Below, one piece after another: positions 13,122-38,500 of a DNA stretch of 64,000 nucleotides. This DNA is from Knoellia remsis (GTDB lineage: Bacteria; Actinomycetota; Actinomycetes; Actinomycetales; Dermatophilaceae). A program made the translations under genes and the position numbers. Each line of letters starts with the position of its first letter. Position 1 is the stretch's first letter. Location: the NCBI RefSeq assembly GCF_003002895.1, contig NZ_PVTI01000001.1, forward strand, positions 1-64,000, read 5' to 3'. The notes below the pieces were generated by a model. It was not told where the DNA came from, made no database searches, and saw only the letters and a list, made by a program, of their open reading frames with translations.

Positions 13122-13296
13122 TGGCAACGGTCCGGGCATGGCTCACCTCGGTCGGCTCATGGCCCGCCAGTCATGGGCCGTCGCGGCACCACCGCATCAA
13201 TAGCGAGCCATATCCCCGCAAAGGCGGGCTGTCGAGTTGTCCGCGGGTGTTGCGTTTGGGTCGACTGCAGTGAACGTCAAGACAGGAGAAGTCGAC

Positions 13297-13845
13297 ATGA
13301 CTGAAGTTCGATCCGCGCTGCCCAGCCGGCGCACCATCGCCATGGGGGCCGCGTGGAGTGTGCCCGTGATGGCCGTCGCCGCCGCCGCACCCGCGCTCGC
13401 AGCGTCAGCGCCGGGGCCGACCGCCGTGCTCGGCGAAGCGTGCAAGTCGCCCGGCGGCTCGTGCAAGGTCTTCGTCAAGGGCTACATCTTCGAGATCACC
13501 ATCGTCAACAACACGCCCGAGACGGTGTGGCTCTATGACGACATCGTGATCACCGACGACAGCCCCTCCATCGACCTCGCCTTCGCCCAGGCGATCGACC
13601 CGGCCACCGGCGAGACGGTCGACTTCCCGGTGCGGCTCGATCCCGGCGACTCGGTCACCTTCATCCTCAACGCGTCGAGCAGCGACTCGGCGAACCAGCA
13701 GGGCGTCACGGTCACGGCATCCATCCCGTGGGGGCACTCGTCCGTGGAGGGCGGCGACCCGGACAACCACGCGCCCATCATGGCGGTCAAGACCTACCCG
13801 GCGACCCCGCCCACCTGCGGCATCAAGCTGCCCCCGGGCTGCTGA
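13297..13845 (+). CDS. Small exported protein with an SRR...GAAWS leader
   Basis: A 182-residue protein with no family I recognise. The N-terminus (SRRTIAMGAAWSVPVMAVAAA, ending APALAAS) is an export signal with a paired-arginine start, possibly Tat-type. The mature part is beta-rich and acidic (ITIVNNTPETVWLYDDIVITDD; DPGDSVTFILNASSSD), resembling a single Ig- or CalX-like surface domain. It has four Cys, two near each end of the mature chain. Start: ATG 13297 after the ribosome binding site AGGAG; an upstream in-frame GTG would place the leader internally. The leader matches that of the Cys-rich protein at 31888 nearly residue for residue. Confidence 0.75.
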   Translation: MTEVRSALPSRRTIAMGAAWSVPVMAVAAAAPALAASAPGPTAVLGEACKSPGGSCKVFVKGYIFEITIVNNTPETVWLYDDIVITDDSPSIDLAFAQAIDPATGETVDFPVRLDPGDSVTFILNASSSDSANQQGVTVTASIPWGHSSVEGGDPDNHAPIMAVKTYPATPPTCGIKLPPGC

Positions 13846-29023: not shown

Positions 29024-29911
29024 ATGACGACGAACCCCTTCGGCCGCCTCATCACGGCCATGGTTACCCCGATGCGCCCCGACGGATCGATCGACGAGGA
29101 CGGGATTCGGGCGGTCGTCGAGCACCTCCTCGCGAGCGGTCACGACGGGATCGTCGTCAACGGCACGACCGGTGAGTCGGCCACCCTCAGCGACGACGAG
29201 AGCATCACGGCCGTGCGGATCGCCAAGGAGGTCGCCGGGGACCGGGCCGCGATCACCGCCGGGGTCGGCTCGAACGACACGGCCCACTCGGTGCACATGG
29301 CCGCCCGTGCCGCGGAGGCCGGCGCCGACGCGCTGCTCCTCGTCTCGCCGTACTACAACAAGCCGACGCAGGCCGGGCTGCTCGCGCACTGCCGGGCCGT
29401 CGCCGACTCCACCGAGCTGCCGATCATGCTCTACGACATCCCGGGCCGGACCGCCGTCGCGTTCGACACCGCGACCCTCATCGAGCTCGCCCAGCACCCG
29501 CGGATCCTGGCCGTCAAGGACGCCAAGGCCGACCTGTGGGCGTCGACGCACGTCATGGCCGCGACCGACCTGCTGTGGTTCAGCGGCGACGACGTGCTGT
29601 CGCTGGCTCACCTCGCGCAGGGTGCCGTCGGCGTCGTCTCCGTCGTCGGTCACGTCGCGGGCAGGGAGTATGCCGCGATGCTGGCTGCCGTGGACGCGGG
29701 TGACCTCGCGCAGGCGCGCGAGATCCACCAGCGGCTCATTCCCGCCGTCGACGCGATCATGACGACCTCGCAGGGGGCGATCATGTCCAAGGCGGCACTC
29801 GCGGAGCTGGGCGTCATCGAGTCGGCCTTCGTCCGGCTGCCGCTCGTGGAGTCACCGCCGGAGCACCTCGAGCTGCTCCGCAAGGGCCTTGCCGAGGCAG
29901 GTCTCGCGTGA
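29024..29911 (+). CDS. dapA: 4-hydroxy-tetrahydrodipicolinate synthase
   Basis: A 295-residue class I aldolase-fold enzyme condensing pyruvate and aspartate semialdehyde. Motifs: [15 protein letters not shown] (Thr-Thr pair), [12 protein letters not shown] with the catalytic Tyr, YDIPGRTAV, and the Schiff-base Lys in [12 protein letters not shown] (about residue 166). The ATG at 29024 is supported by the leaderless box; the frame is open upstream through repeat sequence. The rnj gene overlaps its stop by 4 nt, the conserved dapA-rnj pairing of actinobacteria. Confidence 0.96.
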
Positions 29912-31593
29912 GCCACCCGCACCCCGAGCTGTCCCTGCCCGGCCCGCTCAAGGAGGGCGGCGTTCGCGTCGTCGCCCTCGGTGGCCTCGGCGAGGTCGGC
30001 CGCAACATGGCCGTCGTCGAGCACCGCGGCCAGCTGCTCGTCATCGACTGCGGTGTGCTGTTCCCCGACGACCACCACCCGGGGATCGACCTCATCCTCC
30101 CGGACTTCTCCTACATCGAGGACCGGCTCGACGAGGTGCAGGCGATCATCCTCACCCACGGCCACGAGGACCACATCGGCGCCGTGCCCTACCTCCTGCG
30201 GCTCAAGCCGGACATCCCGCTCGTCGGCTCCCAGCTCACCTTGGCCCTCGTCGAGGCCAAGCTCAAGGAGCACCGGATCAAGCCCTACACCCTCGCGGTC
30301 AAGGAGGGCATGCGCGAGACGTTCGGGGTCTTCGACTGCGAGTTCGTCGCCGTGAACCACTCCATCCCGGACGCGCTCGCGGTCTTCGTGCGGACGTCGG
30401 GTGGGACGCTGCTGCACACCGGCGACTTCAAGATGGACCAGTTGCCGCTCGACGGGCGGCTCACCGACCTGCGCGCCTTCGCCCGGCTCGGGGAGGAGGG
30501 GGTCGATCTCTTCCTCACCGACTCGACCAACGCCGAGGTGCCGGGCTTCACGACACCCGAGAAGGACATCGCGCCGGCCATCGACAAGGTCTTCCGCGAC
30601 GCCAAACGGCGGATCATCGTGGCCTGCTTCTCGTCGCACGTGCACCGCGTGCAACAGGTGCTCGACGCCGCGGAGAAGTCGGGCCGCAAGGTGGCGATGG
30701 TGGGTCGGTCGATGGTGCGCAACATGGGCATCGCCGCCGACCTGGGATATCTGCACGTGCCCGACGGGATCCTCGTCGACTTCAAGAAGCTCGGTGACCT
30801 GCCCGACGACAAGGTCGTCCTCATCTGCACCGGGTCGCAGGGCGAGCCCATGGCTGCGCTGTCGCGGATGGCCAACCGGGACCACCCCATCGAGGTGGGG
30901 GAGGGCGACACCGTCCTCATGGCGTCCTCGCTCATCCCCGGCAACGAGAACGCCGTCTACCGTGTCATCAACGGGCTCATGCGGCTCGGCGCCAACGTCG
31001 TGCACAAGGGCAACGCGCGCGTGCACGTGTCCGGTCACGCGAGCGCCGGCGAGCTGCTCTACTGCTACAACATCGTCAAGCCGCGCAACGTCATGCCGGT
31101 GCACGGCGAGTGGCGCCACCTGCGCGCGAACGCCGACCTCGCCCTGGAGACCGGCGTCCACCCCAAGGGCGTCGTCGTCGTCGAGGACGGCGTGGCCGTG
31201 GACCTCGTCGACGGCAAGGTCCGGGTGGCCGGAGCGGTGCCGTGCGGCTATGTCTACGTCGATGGCTCGTCCGTCGGCGCCGCCGACGAGGCGCTGCTCA
31301 AGGACCGCCAGATCCTGCGGGACGAGGGCTTCATCTCGGTGATCGTCGTCATGGACTCCTCGACGGGCAAGATCGTCGCGGGGCCGGAGATCACCGCGCG
31401 CGGGTTCGTCGAGGATGACGTCGTCTTCGATGACGTCATGCCGAAGCTGACCCAGGCCCTCGACGAGGCGACCGCGCAGGGCGTCACGGACACCTACCAG
31501 CTGGAGCAGGTCATGCGCCGTGCCGTGGGTGGCTGGGTCGGGCGCAAGATCCGCCGCCGGCCGATGATCATTCCGGTGGTCATCGAGGCCTGA
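29908..31593 (+). CDS. rnj: Ribonuclease J
   Basis: A 561-residue metallo-beta-lactamase/beta-CASP nuclease with 5'-3' exo- and endoribonuclease activity, working with PNPase in RNA maturation and decay. The zinc motif is LTHGHEDHIGA (about residue 80). Further metal ligands are in VNHSIPDAL and LLHTGDFKMDQ. The beta-CASP motifs include DSTNAEVPG, ACFSSHVHRVQ and VSGHASAGELL. Start: GTG 29908 overlapping the dapA stop (GTGA). Confidence 0.95.
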   Translation: MSHPHPELSLPGPLKEGGVRVVALGGLGEVGRNMAVVEHRGQLLVIDCGVLFPDDHHPGIDLILPDFSYIEDRLDEVQAIILTHGHEDHIGAVPYLLRLKPDIPLVGSQLTLALVEAKLKEHRIKPYTLAVKEGMRETFGVFDCEFVAVNHSIPDALAVFVRTSGGTLLHTGDFKMDQLPLDGRLTDLRAFARLGEEGVDLFLTDSTNAEVPGFTTPEKDIAPAIDKVFRDAKRRIIVACFSSHVHRVQQVLDAAEKSGRKVAMVGRSMVRNMGIAADLGYLHVPDGILVDFKKLGDLPDDKVVLICTGSQGEPMAALSRMANRDHPIEVGEGDTVLMASSLIPGNENAVYRVINGLMRLGANVVHKGNARVHVSGHASAGELLYCYNIVKPRNVMPVHGEWRHLRANADLALETGVHPKGVVVVEDGVAVDLVDGKVRVAGAVPCGYVYVDGSSVGAADEALLKDRQILRDEGFISVIVVMDSSTGKIVAGPEITARGFVEDDVVFDDVMPKLTQALDEATAQGVTDTYQLEQVMRRAVGGWVGRKIRRRPMIIPVVIEA

Positions 31594-31640
31594 GCGCCCG
31601 CGGTCGGTGCGGTGGGTGATCGGACGTGTCTGATCGGTAA

Positions 31641-31658
31641 CCGGCTCGATCGAGCCGG
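31641..31658. other. 18-nt palindrome downstream of rnj
   Basis: CCGGCTCGATCGAGCCGG is self-complementary, flanked by GGTAA and GGTTACC, which can extend the stem imperfectly. It is 48 nt beyond the rnj stop and may act as a terminator. The rest of the spacer to 31800 shows nothing clear. Confidence 0.5.
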
Positions 31659-31810
31659 GGGATCTGGTTACCCCGTAACAGGCAGCGGGAGATTGGTCCG
31701 ACGATGCCCCTCCCTCGGGTGACGTGCCGAGAACCCTTGCAGCGCAACGTGATTGGGCCACGCCAAGAAGAACACTGTTCAACCCTTGTGAGCTCACTGT
31801 GCCGGGGAGT

Positions 31811-31847
31811 ATCTATATGAACTAGTTCACTCCGATGCCCGGAGTGA
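31811..31847 (+). promoter_or_regulatory. Dyads upstream of the Cys-rich protein gene
   Basis: GAACTAGTTC (31819-31828) is a 10-bp palindrome beside AT-rich sequence (ATCTATAT at 31811). TCACTCCG (31827-31834) pairs with CGGAGTGA (31840-31847). Together they look like a promoter-operator with a hairpin in the leader, 41-69 nt before the ATG at 31888. Confidence 0.45.
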
Positions 31848-31887
31848 CCAGTTGCCAGCGTGCGAACCGTTCGCGAGGGGTCGGCTC

Positions 31888-32731
31888 ATGAGCATCGACA
31901 TCGACATCGACGACCTGGCCGACGCGATCGCGCCGGCGCAGGCGCCATCACGACGGGCGGTCGCCAAGGGGGGCGGCGTGGAGTCTGCCGGTGCTGGCCA
32001 CCGCCATCGCGGCACCGGCCATGGCTGCGTCACCGATCTGTGCTGCATGCACAGGTGCCAGCGGGCCACCGCAGTGCATCTTGGCAGGCGTGCCCGGAGG
32101 GACGTGTCAGTGCCCGTCTGGCCTCGTCTGTGTCGGCACCGGCCCACTCGGCCTGTTCAATGTCTGTGTCGGTTCGAATGTGTTCACTTCAACGTGTGCG
32201 GGGAGCACCTGCTTCGGGGTGTGCCTGGATACCGGTGGCGCACTCGTGACGGCGATCAACGCTTTCACGACAGCGCTGTCAGCATTCGCGCGGTCCGTCC
32301 GCCTGTTGAGCATCGCTGGGATCGAGATCTGCGAGAACTCCGCCGGACTCCCCACCAACGTGTGCGTGTCGCCGTTCAACGACGGGCGGCTCGGCACCCT
32401 TTGTTCCTACTCGTCCTCATGTGGGAACACCTCTCTCATTGGCGTTCCACTGGGCGTGGTGACCACTGCCTACAACACCCTGATCTCCAGCCTGGCGGCT
32501 TTGGACGTGTTGGTCTCGCCTCGATGTGCGACGGGGTACGTCTGCAAGGACATCGCCAGTGTGGCGATCGGATATGCATCCGTGACCGGCGTGACCAGCT
32601 TCGGGTTCTCGATCGGGATCGGGTACTGCCAGTGCGACGACAACACCAAGACGTGTGGTCCCCGCGATACGACCCCGTTCGGGGCGGCGAGCAACATTCC
32701 CTACCCGGCATGCACCCCGGCAGCACCGTGA
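31888..32731 (+). pseudogene. Cysteine-rich exported protein, reading frame broken in a G6 tract
   Basis: From the ATG at 31888 the frame encodes MSIDIDIDDLADAIAPAQAP, then SRRAVAKG, an export leader. At the G6 run (31968-31973) the frame shifts: deleting one G gives AAWSLPVLATAIAAPAMAAS, then about 245 residues to the TGA at 32729-32731. The restored mature chain has 20 Cys, many in C-x-C or C-x2-C spacing (PICAAC; GTCQCPSGLVC; GYCQCDD), and two hydrophobic helices. The leader matches that of the protein at 13297. No family is recognised. The MauE-thioredoxin gene begins 14 nt later, suggesting help with its disulfides. The break could be a real mutation, slippage-based switching, or a base-calling error in the G run. 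Confidence 0.75.
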
Positions 32732-32744
32732 GCGCGCGCTGACA

Positions 32745-34418
32745 ATGATCACGGCGCTGCACCTGGTCGCGACGCTCGTCGTGGCCGGACTGTTCCTCAC
32801 CAGCGGTGTCCTCAAGCTGCGCGACCGTGCGGGTGCCCTGGCCGGGGTGCGAGGCTTCTCGTTCCTGCCCGAGCCGCTCGTCCCGGTCATCGCCCGGGTG
32901 CTGCCGTATGTCGAGATCGCGCTCGGTGTCCTGCTGCTCGTGACGTGGGGGAGCGCCTTCACCGGGGTGGCCGCTCTCGCACTCGCCCTCGCCATCGGCT
33001 TCGTCATCGTCGTGGGCCTGAGCCTGGCCCGTGGAGAACGACCGACATGCCACTGCTTCGGGGAGGTCTCGGCGGAGCCGATCAGCGAGCGCACTCTCCT
33101 GCGGAACGTTGCCATCGCGCTCTCCGCTGCGGCGGCACTGCTGCTCGACCGACCGTTCCCCGGAGTCGTGCCGTCGCTGGTGCGCTTGGGGGCCGCCGAG
33201 GTCGCGTTCGCCCTCACCGCAACGGTTCTCGTCGCGACGGCTGCCATCCTCTGGTCCCGCCTCGACGCGGCTCGACGATCCATCGTCACCCTCACGTCGG
33301 AGCGTGACGCGGCGCTGGCGCGACCCGCGGCTCGTCCGACACTCGACATCCCCGAAGCCGCCGTACTGGGACGTGACGGCGCCTACGTGCCCCTCGCCGA
33401 CTTGGCCCGGGAGAAGGCACAACTCGTCATCGGTGTCTCCCCGACGTGCTCGGTGTGCAAAGAGCTCTCGCCGGCGTTCGCCGGCTGGCGGGCGGCCCTC
33501 GACAAGGAGGTGGGCGTCACGATCGTGTCGTGGGCTGACCTCGGGTCGAGCGTTGCGGCATACCCCGATGACGCCGACTTCCTCTATGCCGACCCCGACG
33601 GACGTGCCCTCGGCGCGCTCGGCATCGGCGGGACTCCGGGCGCAGTCGTGCTCGGCACCAATGGCAAGGTCGCTGCCGGCCCGGCCCTCGGTGGCGAGAG
33701 CATCATGGAGCTCATCACCGCAGTCATCCAGGCGATCGGCGTCAACATGATGACGGGCATGGCCCATCAGGCGAGGGAACCCAGGCCCATCGGGGGGAGC
33801 GACAGCGGGCAGGAGCACCTTCCGGACACCGGGAGCGACCTGCAGGACTTCCTCGTGCGGACAGAGACGGGGGAGCAGGTCCCGTTCATGGACGCGCTGG
33901 CCTCTGTCAGCACGGGTCCGGTTCCGGTCGTGGCGTGGCGTGACTCATGCCCCTACTGCTCCGAGATCGCCGCAGAGATGGTGCAGTTCTCCGAGCGCGG
34001 TGAGGTGGTCCTCCTCGTCAACGAGCCGATCAGCTCGGTCCGATCGCAGGGTCTCACCGGCCCGGCGTTCCAGACCGTCGACATCGACGCGTCTGGCATC
34101 CTCGGCCTGCCCGGCACCCCTGCGGGCTTCCCCGTCGAGGAGGCGCGGGTCGGGGCCGGTGGCGGCGTCGGCGGCGGCTCGGTGCTGCGCATGCTCGTCG
34201 AGCGTGCCCGGGCGAAGGGCACGCTCGTCGAGACCCCTGCCACGCGTCAGGTGGAGCAGCTCCAGCTCCAGGGCGGCGTCCCCGACCCCGAGGACCGTGA
34301 ACTGCTCCCCGTCCGCTCGGCCAGTGCCCCCTCGGCGGCCCAGTCGACGGCACCCGTCCACGCCCACGCGGACCATGCGCACGGCCACGCCCACGCGGGC
34401 CACGCGCACGACCACTGA
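32745..34418 (+). CDS. MauE-like membrane domain fused to two thioredoxin-like domains, His-rich tail
   Basis: A 557-residue fusion. Residues 1-170 form a MauE/DoxX-like membrane domain of about five helices with the C-H-C-F-G motif (C102, C104). Residues about 200-335 are a thioredoxin/TlpA-like domain with CSVC (C235, C238). Residues about 365-500 are a second thioredoxin-like domain with CPYC (C402, C405). The C-terminus is HAHADHAHGHAHAGHAHDH, a likely metal-binding tail. MauE proteins support disulfide formation in the cysteine-rich methylamine dehydrogenase subunit, so this is probably a dedicated thiol oxidase or isomerase for the Cys-rich protein encoded just upstream. Start: ATG 32745; upstream in-frame residues are not membrane-like. 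Confidence 0.82.
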   Translation: MITALHLVATLVVAGLFLTSGVLKLRDRAGALAGVRGFSFLPEPLVPVIARVLPYVEIALGVLLLVTWGSAFTGVAALALALAIGFVIVVGLSLARGERPTCHCFGEVSAEPISERTLLRNVAIALSAAAALLLDRPFPGVVPSLVRLGAAEVAFALTATVLVATAAILWSRLDAARRSIVTLTSERDAALARPAARPTLDIPEAAVLGRDGAYVPLADLAREKAQLVIGVSPTCSVCKELSPAFAGWRAALDKEVGVTIVSWADLGSSVAAYPDDADFLYADPDGRALGALGIGGTPGAVVLGTNGKVAAGPALGGESIMELITAVIQAIGVNMMTGMAHQAREPRPIGGSDSGQEHLPDTGSDLQDFLVRTETGEQVPFMDALASVSTGPVPVVAWRDSCPYCSEIAAEMVQFSERGEVVLLVNEPISSVRSQGLTGPAFQTVDIDASGILGLPGTPAGFPVEEARVGAGGGVGGGSVLRMLVERARAKGTLVETPATRQVEQLQLQGGVPDPEDRELLPVRSASAPSAAQSTAPVHAHADHAHGHAHAGHAHDH

Positions 34419-34470
34419 GCCGCGCCCACGGCATACGGCCCTCAGGGACCGCGGCCACCCCGGGACCTCA

Positions 34471-34539
34471 CGCTCCACCCGAGAAGGCTTGTCCGGTGAA
34501 GCAGGGCGGTATCGGGTGACCCGATAACACTGAGGCGGG
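34471..34539 (+). repeat. 69-nt dispersed repeat with TATCGGGTGACCCGATA core, copy A
   Basis: This stretch, starting CGCTCCACCCGAGAAG and ending CTGAGGCGG, recurs in inverted orientation at 60769-60837 with about 80 percent identity and no gaps. Its core is a 17-nt near-palindrome (34511-34527). It lies in the 190-nt spacer before ftsK, which otherwise holds only the ftsK promoter. Confidence 0.75.
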
Positions 34540-34608: not shown

Positions 34609-37410
34609 ATGGCGTCACGTTCGACCACACCTGCGCGCGCTCGCACGGCCTCCTCGCGGCCGGCGAACCGCCGCGCACCCGCTCGCACGACGAGCCGCAC
34701 GAAGGCACCGGCCCGCAAGAAGAAGGCCGGCGCCCCCATGCCCGTCGCCGCCGTGCGCGGCGCGTGGATGGGCCTCGCGCACGTCACGGGCGGCACCGTC
34801 CGCAAGGTGAGCAACGCCGGCCAGGACCTCGAGCCCGAGCACCGTCGTGACGGCCTCGGCCTCGCGCTCATCGCCCTCGCCGTCGTCGTCGCCGCCCGCG
34901 AGTGGTGGGGCCTGCAGGGCTACGTCGGCGACGTCGTCCACGCCGTCGCCGCCGGCACCTTCGGCAGGGTCGCCTACGCACTCCCGATCGTCCTGCTCCT
35001 CTTCGGCCTGCACCTGTGGCGCACCCCGCGCGAGAACCCCGCGACGAACCGCATGCTCATCGGCACGGTCCTGCTCGCCTTCTCGGCGTGCGGCATCGTG
35101 CACGTCTCCGCGGGCATCCCCGAGCCTCCGGCCGGTGCCGACGGCATGCGCGCCGCCGGCGGCATCATCGGCTTCCTCGCCTCCAGCCCGCTCGAGGCCG
35201 CGGTGTCGATCTACGGCACGATCCCGCTGCTGATCCTGCTGGGCATGTTCGGCATCCTCGTCCTCACCGCCACCCCGGTCCACGAGATCCCCGACCGTCT
35301 CGACCAGCTGCGCGCGACGCTGCTGGGCCACCCGGCATACGACGAGGACGACGCGACCGACGACACCCAGGAGGTGCCGGTCCGCAAGCCGCGCCGCAAG
35401 CGCGCGCAGTCCAGCGACGAGCCGATGGACGGCGACGAGGCCTACGAGCAGGCCGCGGTCGTGGACTACGAGGACGCCGGCAAGCCCGGCAAGGGCAAGG
35501 CCGCCAAGGGCGGTCCGCGCCCGGGAGAAAAGCGCCCGACCGCGCCCGGCGTGCTCGCCCCCGGCGCGACCACCGGTGTCGCCGACGCCGCACCCAAGGC
35601 GACCGCACCCATCCCGCACGAGCCGGCCAAGCTCGAGGCGCCGCCGACGACACCGCTCCCGCAGCGGGTCGAGCAGCTCAGCCTCGCCGGCGACGTCACC
35701 TACACGCTCCCGGACAACTCCGCACTCAAGCAGGGCGCGCCGCACAAGGACCGCAGCGAGGCCAACGACCGCGTCGTCGAGTCGCTGACAACGGTCCTCG
35801 ACGAGTTCGGCATCGATGCGCAGGTCACCGGCTTCACCCGCGGCCCGACGGTCACGCGCTACGTCGTCGAGCTCGGTCCCGGCGTCAAGGTCGAGCGCGT
35901 CACCGCGCTCTCCAAGAACATCGCGTATGCCGTTGCGTCGGCGGACGTGCGCATCCTCAGTCCCATCCCGGGCAAGTCCGCGATCGGTATCGAGATCCCG
36001 AACCCGGACAAGGAGATGGTCTGCCTCGGTGACGTCCTGCGCAGCCGGGCGGCCCGCGACAACCACCACCCGATGGTCATGGGCGTCGGCAAGGACGTCG
36101 AGGGCGGCTACGTCATCGCCAACCTCGCGAAGATGCCGCACCTGCTCGTCGCCGGTGCCACCGGCTCGGGCAAGTCGAGCTTCGTCAACTCGATGATCAC
36201 CTCGATCCTCATGCGGGCCACGCCCGACGAGGTCCGCATGGTGCTCGTCGACCCCAAGCGCGTCGAGCTCACGGCGTACGAGGGCATCCCGCACCTCATC
36301 ACGCCGATCATCACCAACCCCAAGAAGGCCGCCGAGGCCCTCCAGTGGGTGGTGCGCGAGATGGACGCCCGCTACGACGACCTCGCCGCGTTCGGCTACA
36401 AGCACGTCGACGACTTCAACAAGGCGGTCCGCGCCGGCAAGGTCCAGCCGCTGCCCGGGTCGGAGCGGGTCATCCAGCCCTACCCCTACCTCCTCGTCGT
36501 CGTCGACGAGCTCGCCGACCTCATGATGGTCGCCCCGCGCGACGTCGAGGAGTCGATCGTCCGCATCACCCAGCTCGCGCGTGCGGCCGGCATCCACCTC
36601 ATCCTCGCGACGCAGCGGCCGTCGGTCGACGTCGTCACCGGACTCATCAAGGCCAACGTGCCCTCACGCATGGCGTTCGCGACCTCCTCGCTCGCCGACA
36701 GCCGCGTCGTGCTCGACCAGCCCGGTGCCGAGAAGCTGCTCGGCCAGGGTGACGGGCTCTTCCTGCCGATGGGTGCGAGCAAGCCGATGCGCGTCCAGGG
36801 CGCGTGGGTCACCGAGACCGAGATCCAGGAGATCGTCGGCCACGTCACCGGCCAGCTCAAGCCGACCTACCGCGAGGACGTCACCGTCGCCGCGGCGAAG
36901 AAGCAGATCGACGACGACATCGGCGACGACCTCGACCTGCTGCTGCAGGCGACCGAGCTCGTCGTCACGACGCAGTTCGGCTCGACGTCGATGCTCCAGC
37001 GCAAGCTGCGCGTCGGCTTCGCCAAGGCCGGGCGCCTCATGGACCTCCTCGAGTCGCGCGGTGTCGTCGGCCCGTCCGAGGGCTCGAAGGCGCGCGACGT
37101 GCTCGTCCGCCCCGATGACCTGCCGACGACCCTCGCACTGCTGCGCGGTGAGGACGTGCCCGACGCCGAGCCGGTCTACGACGACCAGGCCGAGACGGAG
37201 TCCACCCACGCCGAGGTGGGCGAACAGCCCTCTGCGGCAACGGCATACGACGCGGTTCCGGAGCCTGCCCAGCCCGCTGCGCCGCCTGCGACGGACCGCT
37301 ACGGCAGCGACGCGGTTGCGGCCGACCTCGACTCCCGCCCCCAGGCCGACGCCTGGGACGAGGACGAGGACGACAGCGAGGACGCCTGGGAGCTCACCGG
37401 GCGTCGGTGA
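34609..37410 (+). CDS. ftsK: DNA translocase FtsK
   Basis: A 933-residue DNA pump that clears and aligns chromosome termini at the division septum. A basic N-terminal tail (RSTTPARARTASSRPANRR) precedes four membrane helices (about residues 80-225). A Lys/Asp/Pro-rich linker runs to about 370, then the motor. Walker A is AGATGSGKSSFVNS (about residue 520); Walker B is YLLVVVDELADLM. The C-terminal gamma domain (LVVTTQFGSTSMLQRKLRVGFAKAGRLMDLLE) reads orientation sequences on DNA. An acidic tail of about 90 residues follows. The gene ends by overlapping the convergent MauE-thioredoxin gene by 17 nt. Confidence 0.95.
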   Translation: MASRSTTPARARTASSRPANRRAPARTTSRTKAPARKKKAGAPMPVAAVRGAWMGLAHVTGGTVRKVSNAGQDLEPEHRRDGLGLALIALAVVVAAREWWGLQGYVGDVVHAVAAGTFGRVAYALPIVLLLFGLHLWRTPRENPATNRMLIGTVLLAFSACGIVHVSAGIPEPPAGADGMRAAGGIIGFLASSPLEAAVSIYGTIPLLILLGMFGILVLTATPVHEIPDRLDQLRATLLGHPAYDEDDATDDTQEVPVRKPRRKRAQSSDEPMDGDEAYEQAAVVDYEDAGKPGKGKAAKGGPRPGEKRPTAPGVLAPGATTGVADAAPKATAPIPHEPAKLEAPPTTPLPQRVEQLSLAGDVTYTLPDNSALKQGAPHKDRSEANDRVVESLTTVLDEFGIDAQVTGFTRGPTVTRYVVELGPGVKVERVTALSKNIAYAVASADVRILSPIPGKSAIGIEIPNPDKEMVCLGDVLRSRAARDNHHPMVMGVGKDVEGGYVIANLAKMPHLLVAGATGSGKSSFVNSMITSILMRATPDEVRMVLVDPKRVELTAYEGIPHLITPIITNPKKAAEALQWVVREMDARYDDLAAFGYKHVDDFNKAVRAGKVQPLPGSERVIQPYPYLLVVVDELADLMMVAPRDVEESIVRITQLARAAGIHLILATQRPSVDVVTGLIKANVPSRMAFATSSLADSRVVLDQPGAEKLLGQGDGLFLPMGASKPMRVQGAWVTETEIQEIVGHVTGQLKPTYREDVTVAAAKKQIDDDIGDDLDLLLQATELVVTTQFGSTSMLQRKLRVGFAKAGRLMDLLESRGVVGPSEGSKARDVLVRPDDLPTTLALLRGEDVPDAEPVYDDQAETESTHAEVGEQPSAATAYDAVPEPAQPAAPPATDRYGSDAVAADLDSRPQADAWDEDEDDSEDAWELTGRR

Positions 37411-38494
37411 CGCCCGCCTGCTCGCTCTCCACGACGGTGCCGGTTCCTTCGGGGCCGGCGCCGTCGTCGTTGTCCGGTATGCCGCCGCGCAGCTGCTCCT
37501 CGATCTCACCGATGAAGCTCCTCACCTCGTCCTCACCGGCCACGGGGCCGCCAGCGAGGAGCTGGTCGGCGCCGAGGAGGACGGCGCTCGGTGAGGCGGT
37601 GAGGTCGAACGCCTGCCACGCGAGGGCAGCGTGGTCGAGGAGGGTTCCCGACGGCGGGTCGCCCACGAACTCCTCCTTGATCGGGACCGAGAAGACCAGC
37701 CGGACGTCGAGCGCTTCCAGCCGCTGCTGCCACCCGGGCTGGGCGGCCATGGCGTCCCTGGTCGAGGCGCAATAGCAGTTGACGAAGACGAGCAGCTGGG
37801 CGCGCTCCCGGGCCAGCTCGGCAAGGGTCGCCGGGCCGGACGCGGGGTCGAAGAGCACCGCGGAGGGGAACGGCGTTCGGACGTAGTCGAGCTCCGCACC
37901 GTCCACGTCGCTGCCGTCCGGGGCGTCCATGGGCTCCTGCTGCTGCCGCGCGGTGCGGCGCGGGAGCGCGATGCCCTGCCCACCGGCCACGATCCACGTC
38001 ACGAGTGCGGTGAGGGTGGCCAGGGCGAGCCACAGCACGTCACCGGGTGCGGCACCGGCGAGCACGGACCAGACGGTCCGTCCCGACTGGGCCAGGGCGA
38101 CGGTGGCGACGGCCGCCGCGACGAGGAGCGTGTTGCGCAACAGCGTGCGCGGGCGGATCCGGTGGTCACCGGCCTGACCGAAGCAGCCGCACGACGGCCG
38201 CGGCGTGATCGTCAACCCGCGGGCGATGAGCAGCCAGTAGACGACCATGAGCCCGAGTGTGGCCACGGCGGCGACGAGCACCAAGGGCCACCAAGGGAGG
38301 AGCAGGCCGAGCGCGAGCGCGAGCTCGATCGCCGGGATGGCCCGAGCCAGCCGAGCGGGAAGGATCCGGGCCGGGAGACGGAGGTTCGCGATGACCGACT
38401 GCAGCGAGGCGCCCTTGCCGACCTTGGCCGCGGCGCTGAGGAGGAGCACGGCGACGAGGACGAGGGGGGCGAGAACCCACGCGGCCTGCTGCAT
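37394..38494 (-). CDS. MauE-like membrane domain fused to one thioredoxin-like domain
   Basis: A 366-residue paralogue of the protein at 32745. The membrane domain (residues 1-175) has five or six helices and the C-G-C-F-G motif at C102 and C104, the same positions as in the paralogue. The C-terminal thioredoxin-like domain (about 210-345) has C-Y-C (C240, C242) in place of C-x-x-C. That unusual C-x-C could favour disulfide isomerisation, though function is inferred. The ATG at 38494 is chosen because TAGCAT lies 6 nt upstream; a GTG two codons earlier is the alternative. It overlaps the ftsK end convergently. Confidence 0.82.
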   Translation of the reverse strand: MQQAAWVLAPLVLVAVLLLSAAAKVGKGASLQSVIANLRLPARILPARLARAIPAIELALALGLLLPWWPLVLVAAVATLGLMVVYWLLIARGLTITPRPSCGCFGQAGDHRIRPRTLLRNTLLVAAAVATVALAQSGRTVWSVLAGAAPGDVLWLALATLTALVTWIVAGGQGIALPRRTARQQQEPMDAPDGSDVDGAELDYVRTPFPSAVLFDPASGPATLAELARERAQLLVFVNCYCASTRDAMAAQPGWQQRLEALDVRLVFSVPIKEEFVGDPPSGTLLDHAALAWQAFDLTASPSAVLLGADQLLAGGPVAGEDEVRSFIGEIEEQLRGGIPDNDDGAGPEGTGTVVESEQAGVTDAR

Positions 38495-38500
38495 GGGCAC

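Follow-up and report, generated by a model that had tools for sequence, protein, structure and literature searches.

A candidate dedicated disulfide-forming gene pair for a cysteine-rich exported protein in Knoellia remsis

Two adjacent genes of Knoellia remsis encode a Cys-rich exported protein and, probably, a dedicated machine by which its disulfides are formed and sorted. The first gene encodes this Cys-rich protein and the second encodes a membrane protein in which a MauE domain is fused to two thioredoxin-like domains (Table 1). The pair was studied in what we call the window, meaning the whole 64,000 nt stretch of DNA that was analysed (positions 1–64,000 of contig NZ_PVTI01000001.1), and window coordinates are used throughout. 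From a reading of their sequences alone, we take the flanking genes to be rnj and ftsK (RNase J and FtsK). The gene for the membrane protein starts at 32745, leaving 13 bases after the end of the Cys-rich frame; the preliminary description of this DNA had placed the second gene 14 nt on, and both genes are confirmed. A scan for promoters and terminators found none.

Table 1. Position of the gene pair, its parts and its neighbours in the window.
Feature	Position	Strand	Remarks
rnj, left neighbour of the pair	29908–31593		
Two-gene insertion between rnj and ftsK	31594–34509	+	from congener alignment around the junction
Leader start, ATG and twin-arginine part (MSIDID..SRRAVAK)	31888–31967	+	frame 1, read from sequence
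Run of six G, leader frame break	31968–31973	+	
Cys-rich exported protein	31991–32731	+	read in frame 2; mature protein begins near 32027; 20 Cys, no Trp
MauE-thioredoxin-thioredoxin membrane protein	32745–34418	+	557 aa
MauE domain	32754–33143	+	PF07291, E 3.5e-23
C-H-C-F-G motif of MauE	33048–33062	+	both Cys, F and G invariant in 5/5
First thioredoxin-like domain, TlpA/ResA type	33345–33743	+	CSVC at 33447–33458
Second thioredoxin-like domain, G-T-P loop	33840–34214	+	CPYC at 33948–33959
His-rich tail of the membrane protein	34359–34415	+	not conserved
ftsK, right neighbour of the pair	34609–37410		
Separate MauE gene with one thioredoxin region, adjoining ftsK	37394–38500	-	outside the cassette; widespread

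The cysteine-rich protein and its leader

The frame at 31991–32731 has the highest Cys content among the 54 frames picked by a simple caller in the window, with 20 Cys in 234 residues against a window background of 0.88% (binomial P ~6e-14). The 20 Cys of the exported protein first described here are confirmed, but the ATG of its leader, at 31888, lies in another frame. Sequence searches of Pfam, NCBIfam and the PDB gave no match of useful score for the Cys-rich protein; a colipase match (E 0.016) was set aside as a resemblance of Cys pattern that we do not trust. The predicted fold is poor (mean pLDDT 58) and a structure search with this model gave no usable match, so that at such low confidence no fold is claimed. 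Across the five family members found (see below), the mature part is 177 to ~290 residues long and, as aligned (the G004 protein without its tail), contains at most one His, at most three Met and no Trp in any of the five. Pairwise dN/dS is low, at ~0.27 for the Cys-rich gene (window against Metallococcus copy, NG86, with dS near saturation at 1.4) and ~0.35 for the gene of the membrane protein.

An alignment of the five members shows 16 invariant Cys, so that the Cys pattern persists in all homologues found, a point raised as a check by the preliminary description. Two extra Cys pairs, a central and a C-terminal one, are present in the window protein and in those of G093 and G047 and absent from those of G004 and G119, and the totals are accordingly even throughout (20, 20, 20, 16 and 16). 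This gain and loss of Cys in pairs, together with the even totals and with export, suggests that the mature protein is probably held by eight to ten disulfides, presumably at the cell surface. Together the five proteins make up a new exported family, each member with probably eight to ten disulfides.

In the present assembly no one frame leads from 31888 to 32731, and the change from frame 1 to frame 2 falls within the run of six G. All four relatives (G004, G047, G093 and G119) have the same type of leader in an open frame. Fourteen of the 18 runs of six G or C in the window lie within frames kept open by the caller, which argues against assembly error at such runs as a general phenomenon. 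An assembly error, a genuine mutation (i.e. a pseudogene) or a slippage switch could account for the break; since the downstream frame is open and its pairwise dN/dS is ~0.27, it is likely to be a recent event, a slippage site or an assembly error. A Tat-type motif, SRRxxxK, can be read by eye in the leader, none of the NCBIfam leader models matched the leaders of the four open-frame relatives, and export would be by way of a twin-arginine-type leader. Another exported protein in the window, encoded at 13237–13845 (+), has the same leader type (SRRTIAMGAAWSVPVMAVAAAAPALAAS) and contains 4 Cys.

Domains of the membrane protein

The Pfam model PF07291 matches the 557-residue membrane protein at 79.1 bits (cut-off 27) and matches all five members of the family. 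Cysteine motifs are located at C102-x-C104-F-G in the MauE domain and at C235-x-x-C238 and C402-x-x-C405 in the two regions that follow, and the MauE motif and the two CxxC motifs originally read from this gene are thereby borne out. The CxCFG motif, both CxxC motifs and the GTP of the second domain are invariant in all five members. The His-rich tail, also part of that first reading, is full in the window protein but leaves only traces in two relatives and is absent from the other two.

A whole-protein model calculated from four sequences (mean pLDDT 67, pTM 0.35) shows the MauE part as long helices, together with two thioredoxin-like regions in which most block scores exceed 70. The first of these regions matches PF00578 just under the cut-off in the window protein (E 1e-4), and a PDB profile search matched it to ResA; the MauD model (TIGR02661) did not reach its cut-off (E 0.14, 11.6 bits vs 188.6). 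The first-domain model superposes on ResA, Mycobacterium tuberculosis DsbF and SdbA with Z scores of 14.5–14.8 over 130–133 residues (rmsd 2.5–3.0), a result tied with peroxiredoxins and iodothyronine deiodinase of the same fold (Z up to 15.6). The first domain, which lies in a confident part of the model, is thus a CxxC motif in a thioredoxin fold. For the second domain there is a weak Thioredoxin_2 match in the window protein (residues 393–415, E 0.032); Thioredoxin_2 is matched by three of the five members with a best E of 5.5e-8, in matches that may fall anywhere in the protein, and one thioredoxin (E 0.044) was returned when a profile of three members was searched against the PDB. In the whole-protein model this domain has the strand–helix order of a thioredoxin. 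Its CPYC motif and the Thr that precedes the Pro resemble those of DsbG and DsbC.

The best-known client of MauE is the small subunit of methylamine dehydrogenase, in which two Trp form the TTQ cofactor. Lacking Trp, the Cys-rich protein cannot be a TTQ subunit, and identity with the methylamine dehydrogenase small subunit was rejected on the absence of Trp from all five members and of any Pfam match above chance. The light chain model PF02975 has no match in the K. remsis genome and none in 14 control genomes either. In the mau cluster, MauE and MauD serve the maturation of methylamine dehydrogenase, and the role of MauE in forming the disulfides of the beta subunit is described as speculative (PMC7794033). 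The present pair resembles the mau cluster in combining a CxCFG MauE domain and a TlpA-like thioredoxin region with an exported multi-disulfide client, but differs in that a single fused protein carries these domains together with a second thioredoxin domain, and in that the MauD model stays below its cut-off. TlpA, ResA, SdbA and M. tuberculosis DsbF share the fold of the first thioredoxin domain but are not fused to MauE, and they differ among themselves in redox direction (for the thioredoxin background, PMC10783030). The one-thioredoxin MauE proteins of Micrococcales, such as that encoded next to ftsK in the window, share both the MauE domain and the first thioredoxin region; they are widespread and often located beside ftsK, and the matches listed for them end before the second thioredoxin domain.

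The likeness of the first domain to TlpA and ResA, with a structural match to TlpA bound to the copper chaperone ScoI, would also suit a different function, in which the Cys-rich protein binds metal and the membrane protein keeps its thiols reduced for loading, as TlpA does at copper sites. The CxC and CxxC motifs and the His-rich tail of the window protein are in keeping with this. We consider it unlikely because the Cys vary in pairs, the mature parts are poor in ligands (0–1 His and 0–3 Met as aligned), the His tail is not conserved, and MauE has previously been connected with disulfide formation (PMC7794033).

Occurrence and proposed mobility of the pair

With the mature Cys-rich protein as the query, a search of 186 genomes of the family located relatives in five genomes of five genera (K. 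remsis itself, G004, G047, G093 and G119); none of the eight other genomes of the genus was matched. Among GTDB genomes, scanning with the single sequence yielded no relative, and a subsequent profile scan of the collection identified three carriers, Metallococcus carri (G093), a Phycicoccus assembly (G047) and Ornithinimicrobium laminariae (G119). In the order sample the mature part matched one of 396 genomes, that of K. remsis, and in the phylum sample (also 396 genomes) the K. remsis gene was the sole match extending past the leader; both samples evidently do not include the four other carriers. No relative was detected in a plasmid collection (single-sequence query) or a viral collection (profile). 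A profile that contained the leader matched 79 of 396 order genomes and three of 396 phylum genomes, but these were not counted as family, most of the listed matches other than the K. remsis gene extending barely, if at all, past the leader. Among them, G276 and G506 extend further, and the proteins concerned have two Cys.

In all five genomes the Cys-rich gene and the gene for the MauE-thioredoxin-thioredoxin protein are adjacent on the same strand, separated by spacers of 12 to ~71 bases and in reversed order in one pair, that of O. laminariae. Whether homologues might lack a MauE-type neighbour had been put forward at the outset as a check on the pairing, and none of the five does. The MauE query itself matched 153 of the 186 genomes (matches to ~E 1e-9, with the best seven or fewer candidates per genome scored), and among the matches listed the same five proteins alone extend to residue 484 or beyond, the others stopping by residue 391. 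At E 1e-20 the MauE query matched 63 of the 396 genomes in the order sample, and among the best three or fewer candidates per genome the K. remsis protein alone passes profile position 354. Among the matches listed, then, the second thioredoxin domain is found nowhere but beside the Cys-rich gene. When the five genomes are compared two by two, the identities of one protein correlate with those of the other at 0.77 (ten pairs, not independent). The MauE frame was found by the caller at 33 of 40 loci, which show the ftsK-type MauE gene in many members of the family, and no Cys-rich exported neighbour was seen in the ftsK arrangement at those 33 loci. A chance neighbourhood, with a general oxidation system folding the Cys-rich protein, would draw on the VKOR and other MauE proteins of this genome, but is very improbable given adjacency in five of five genomes at different sites and a second thioredoxin domain that, among the matches listed, occurs with the Cys-rich gene alone.

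Clusters in Streptomyces offer a further comparison. Kloosterman and colleagues report mauE homologues in three candidate peptide families, each cluster having a predicted precursor with at least eight Cys (decRiPPter clusters; PMC7794033), so that MauE beside Cys-rich products is already in print. By analogy, the Cys-rich protein could be the precursor of a ribosomally made modified peptide and the MauE-thioredoxin protein its tailoring enzyme. This is quite improbable: the mature part is long (177 to ~290 aa), the pair alone recurs at five loci with no third gene (as read from unannotated frames), and the phylum sample shows the K. remsis gene alone beyond leader matches. Those are proposed peptide clusters, which sets them apart from the present family with its twin-arginine-type leader. 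Neither the fused three-domain machine nor the Cys-rich family was found in the open-licence literature searched.

Alignment with congeners suggests how the pair reached its present position. The alignment with four congeners (L107, L108, L111 and L113) ends at 31589–31593 and resumes at 34510 or 34555, a short spacer separating the two parts, such that rnj and ftsK are adjacent and the pair is missing; in a fifth (L093) the ftsK side alone was matched and is preceded by another gene. At the G004 site, the congeners G002 and G003 have other DNA where the pair sits. The five carriers thus present five different neighbourhoods, and the pair is absent from congeners at both sites tested. Third-position G+C lies below the mean of the neighbouring genes for the Cys-rich gene at all five loci and for the MauE gene at four, which fits arrival from elsewhere. 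The pair would accordingly be a two-gene mobile cassette that moves as a unit. A near-palindrome, TATCGGGTGACCCGATA, is located at the right edge of the insertion (34510–34526) and recurs in the L107 spacer.

Proposed mechanism and a wider leader–MauE pattern

The preliminary description had suggested a private disulfide-loading system, an idea now supported by the five-of-five adjacency, the 16 shared Cys and a three-domain foldase that, among the matches listed, occurs in the same five of 186 genomes. In the mechanism that we propose, the product of the first gene would be exported via its twin-arginine-type leader and, once outside the membrane, be held together by its eight to ten disulfides, and the product of the second would be a folding machine dedicated to it. 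MauE would keep the first thioredoxin domain (TlpA/ResA type) oxidised, and that domain would insert disulfides into the new protein, with the MauE domain (CxCFG) handing the electrons to the membrane electron chain, while the second thioredoxin domain (CPYC, Gly-Thr-Pro) would reshuffle wrong disulfides. The redox direction, the division of labour between the two domains, the electron acceptor and the oxidation of the Cys-rich protein by the MauE machine are all elements that we infer.

Several observations weigh against a dedicated foldase. The best-known roles of ResA and TlpA, which belong to the closest solved relatives of the first thioredoxin domain, are those of reductases. Proteins that take the twin-arginine route are usually folded beforehand, so that folding after export fits badly. 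General oxidation may suffice, because the K. remsis genome encodes VKOR and other MauE proteins, and with five family members found the statistics rest on few lineages. The broken leader in the window, the poor fold predicted for the client, the pTM of 0.35 for the machine and a Cys-free leader protein beside a MauE gene (G547, see below) count on the same side. A VKOR match is present in K. remsis, where the private machine would therefore add to general oxidation, and in four of the eight congeners; the search found no VKOR match in the other four. All eight congeners have a MauE-type match, including the four without a VKOR match, and in those four MauE might be the main source of oxidant. 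One machine with one client would provide a clean system in which to test the role of MauE, oxidation and the second thioredoxin domain.

The leader of the Cys-rich protein (RRxxxKGxAWSxPV..AAPAxAAS) is shared by numerous unrelated exported proteins in the order, the leader profile matching 79 of 396 genomes. In samples searched with the same settings, and apparently made up of the same genomes, there is a leader match in 49 of the 63 MauE-thioredoxin genomes and in 30 of the 333 others (Fisher P 4e-29, a value far too small since kinship is ignored). It is possible, if doubtful, that Micrococcales generally use MauE-thioredoxin fusions to form disulfides in leader-marked exported proteins with an even number of Cys, and that thioredoxin domains increase in number with the disulfides to be made, one domain serving clients with up to about five disulfides and two the family with 16–20 Cys. 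If true, this would be a so far unrecognised disulfide-forming system.

We examined 107 MauE loci, at times several per genome, and ten were chosen for a nearby leader match on the contig. A leader-like frame lies within 2 kb in 19 of the 107, of which seven are out-of-frame false matches by reading, leaving 12 in 11 genomes. Three of these (G283, G491 and G507, with 0, 2 and 0 Cys) were left out of the adjacent set as lying more than 1 kb away, and G276 and G436 were added from separate inspection, giving ten genomes with a leader gene beside a MauE gene. The Cys counts of the ten adjacent leader proteins range from 0 to 10 and are all even: 10 in G041, 8 in G171, 6 in G088, 4 in G174, two each in G214, G276, G419, G436 and G488, and none in G547. 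Six of the leader genes precede the MauE gene on its own strand; the arrangement is convergent in three genomes (G041, G088 and G171) and divergent in one (G174). By our own rough estimate, assuming six leaders per genome and 200 genomes, about 1.4 adjacent genomes would be expected (Poisson P 2e-6). With no Cys at all, the leader protein of G547 runs counter to a simple account by disulfides, and in the ftsK arrangement the one-thioredoxin gene lacks a neighbour of this kind. Under a strict leader pattern, which misses the Cys-rich family, 26 of 30 leader proteins have an even number of Cys and two of the four odd cases are out of frame; a looser pattern with more false matches gives 63 of 76. 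Within the order sample, the MauE-thioredoxin proteins that come next in closeness are those of G436 and G214, encoded beside exported proteins with similar leaders and two Cys.

Leader proteins beside MauE-thioredoxin genes include those at L118 3775–4398 (10 Cys), L145 2585–3202 (8), L119 3368–4099 (6) and L071 1123–1785 (4), whose genes are convergent to the MauE-thioredoxin gene in three cases and divergent in one. The two-Cys leader proteins (L153 4645–5157, L155 3164–3739, L156 3750–4658, L157 5176–6333 and L154 5740–6339) have one Cys near each end of the mature part, and their genes are on the same strand as, and upstream of, the MauE-thioredoxin genes.
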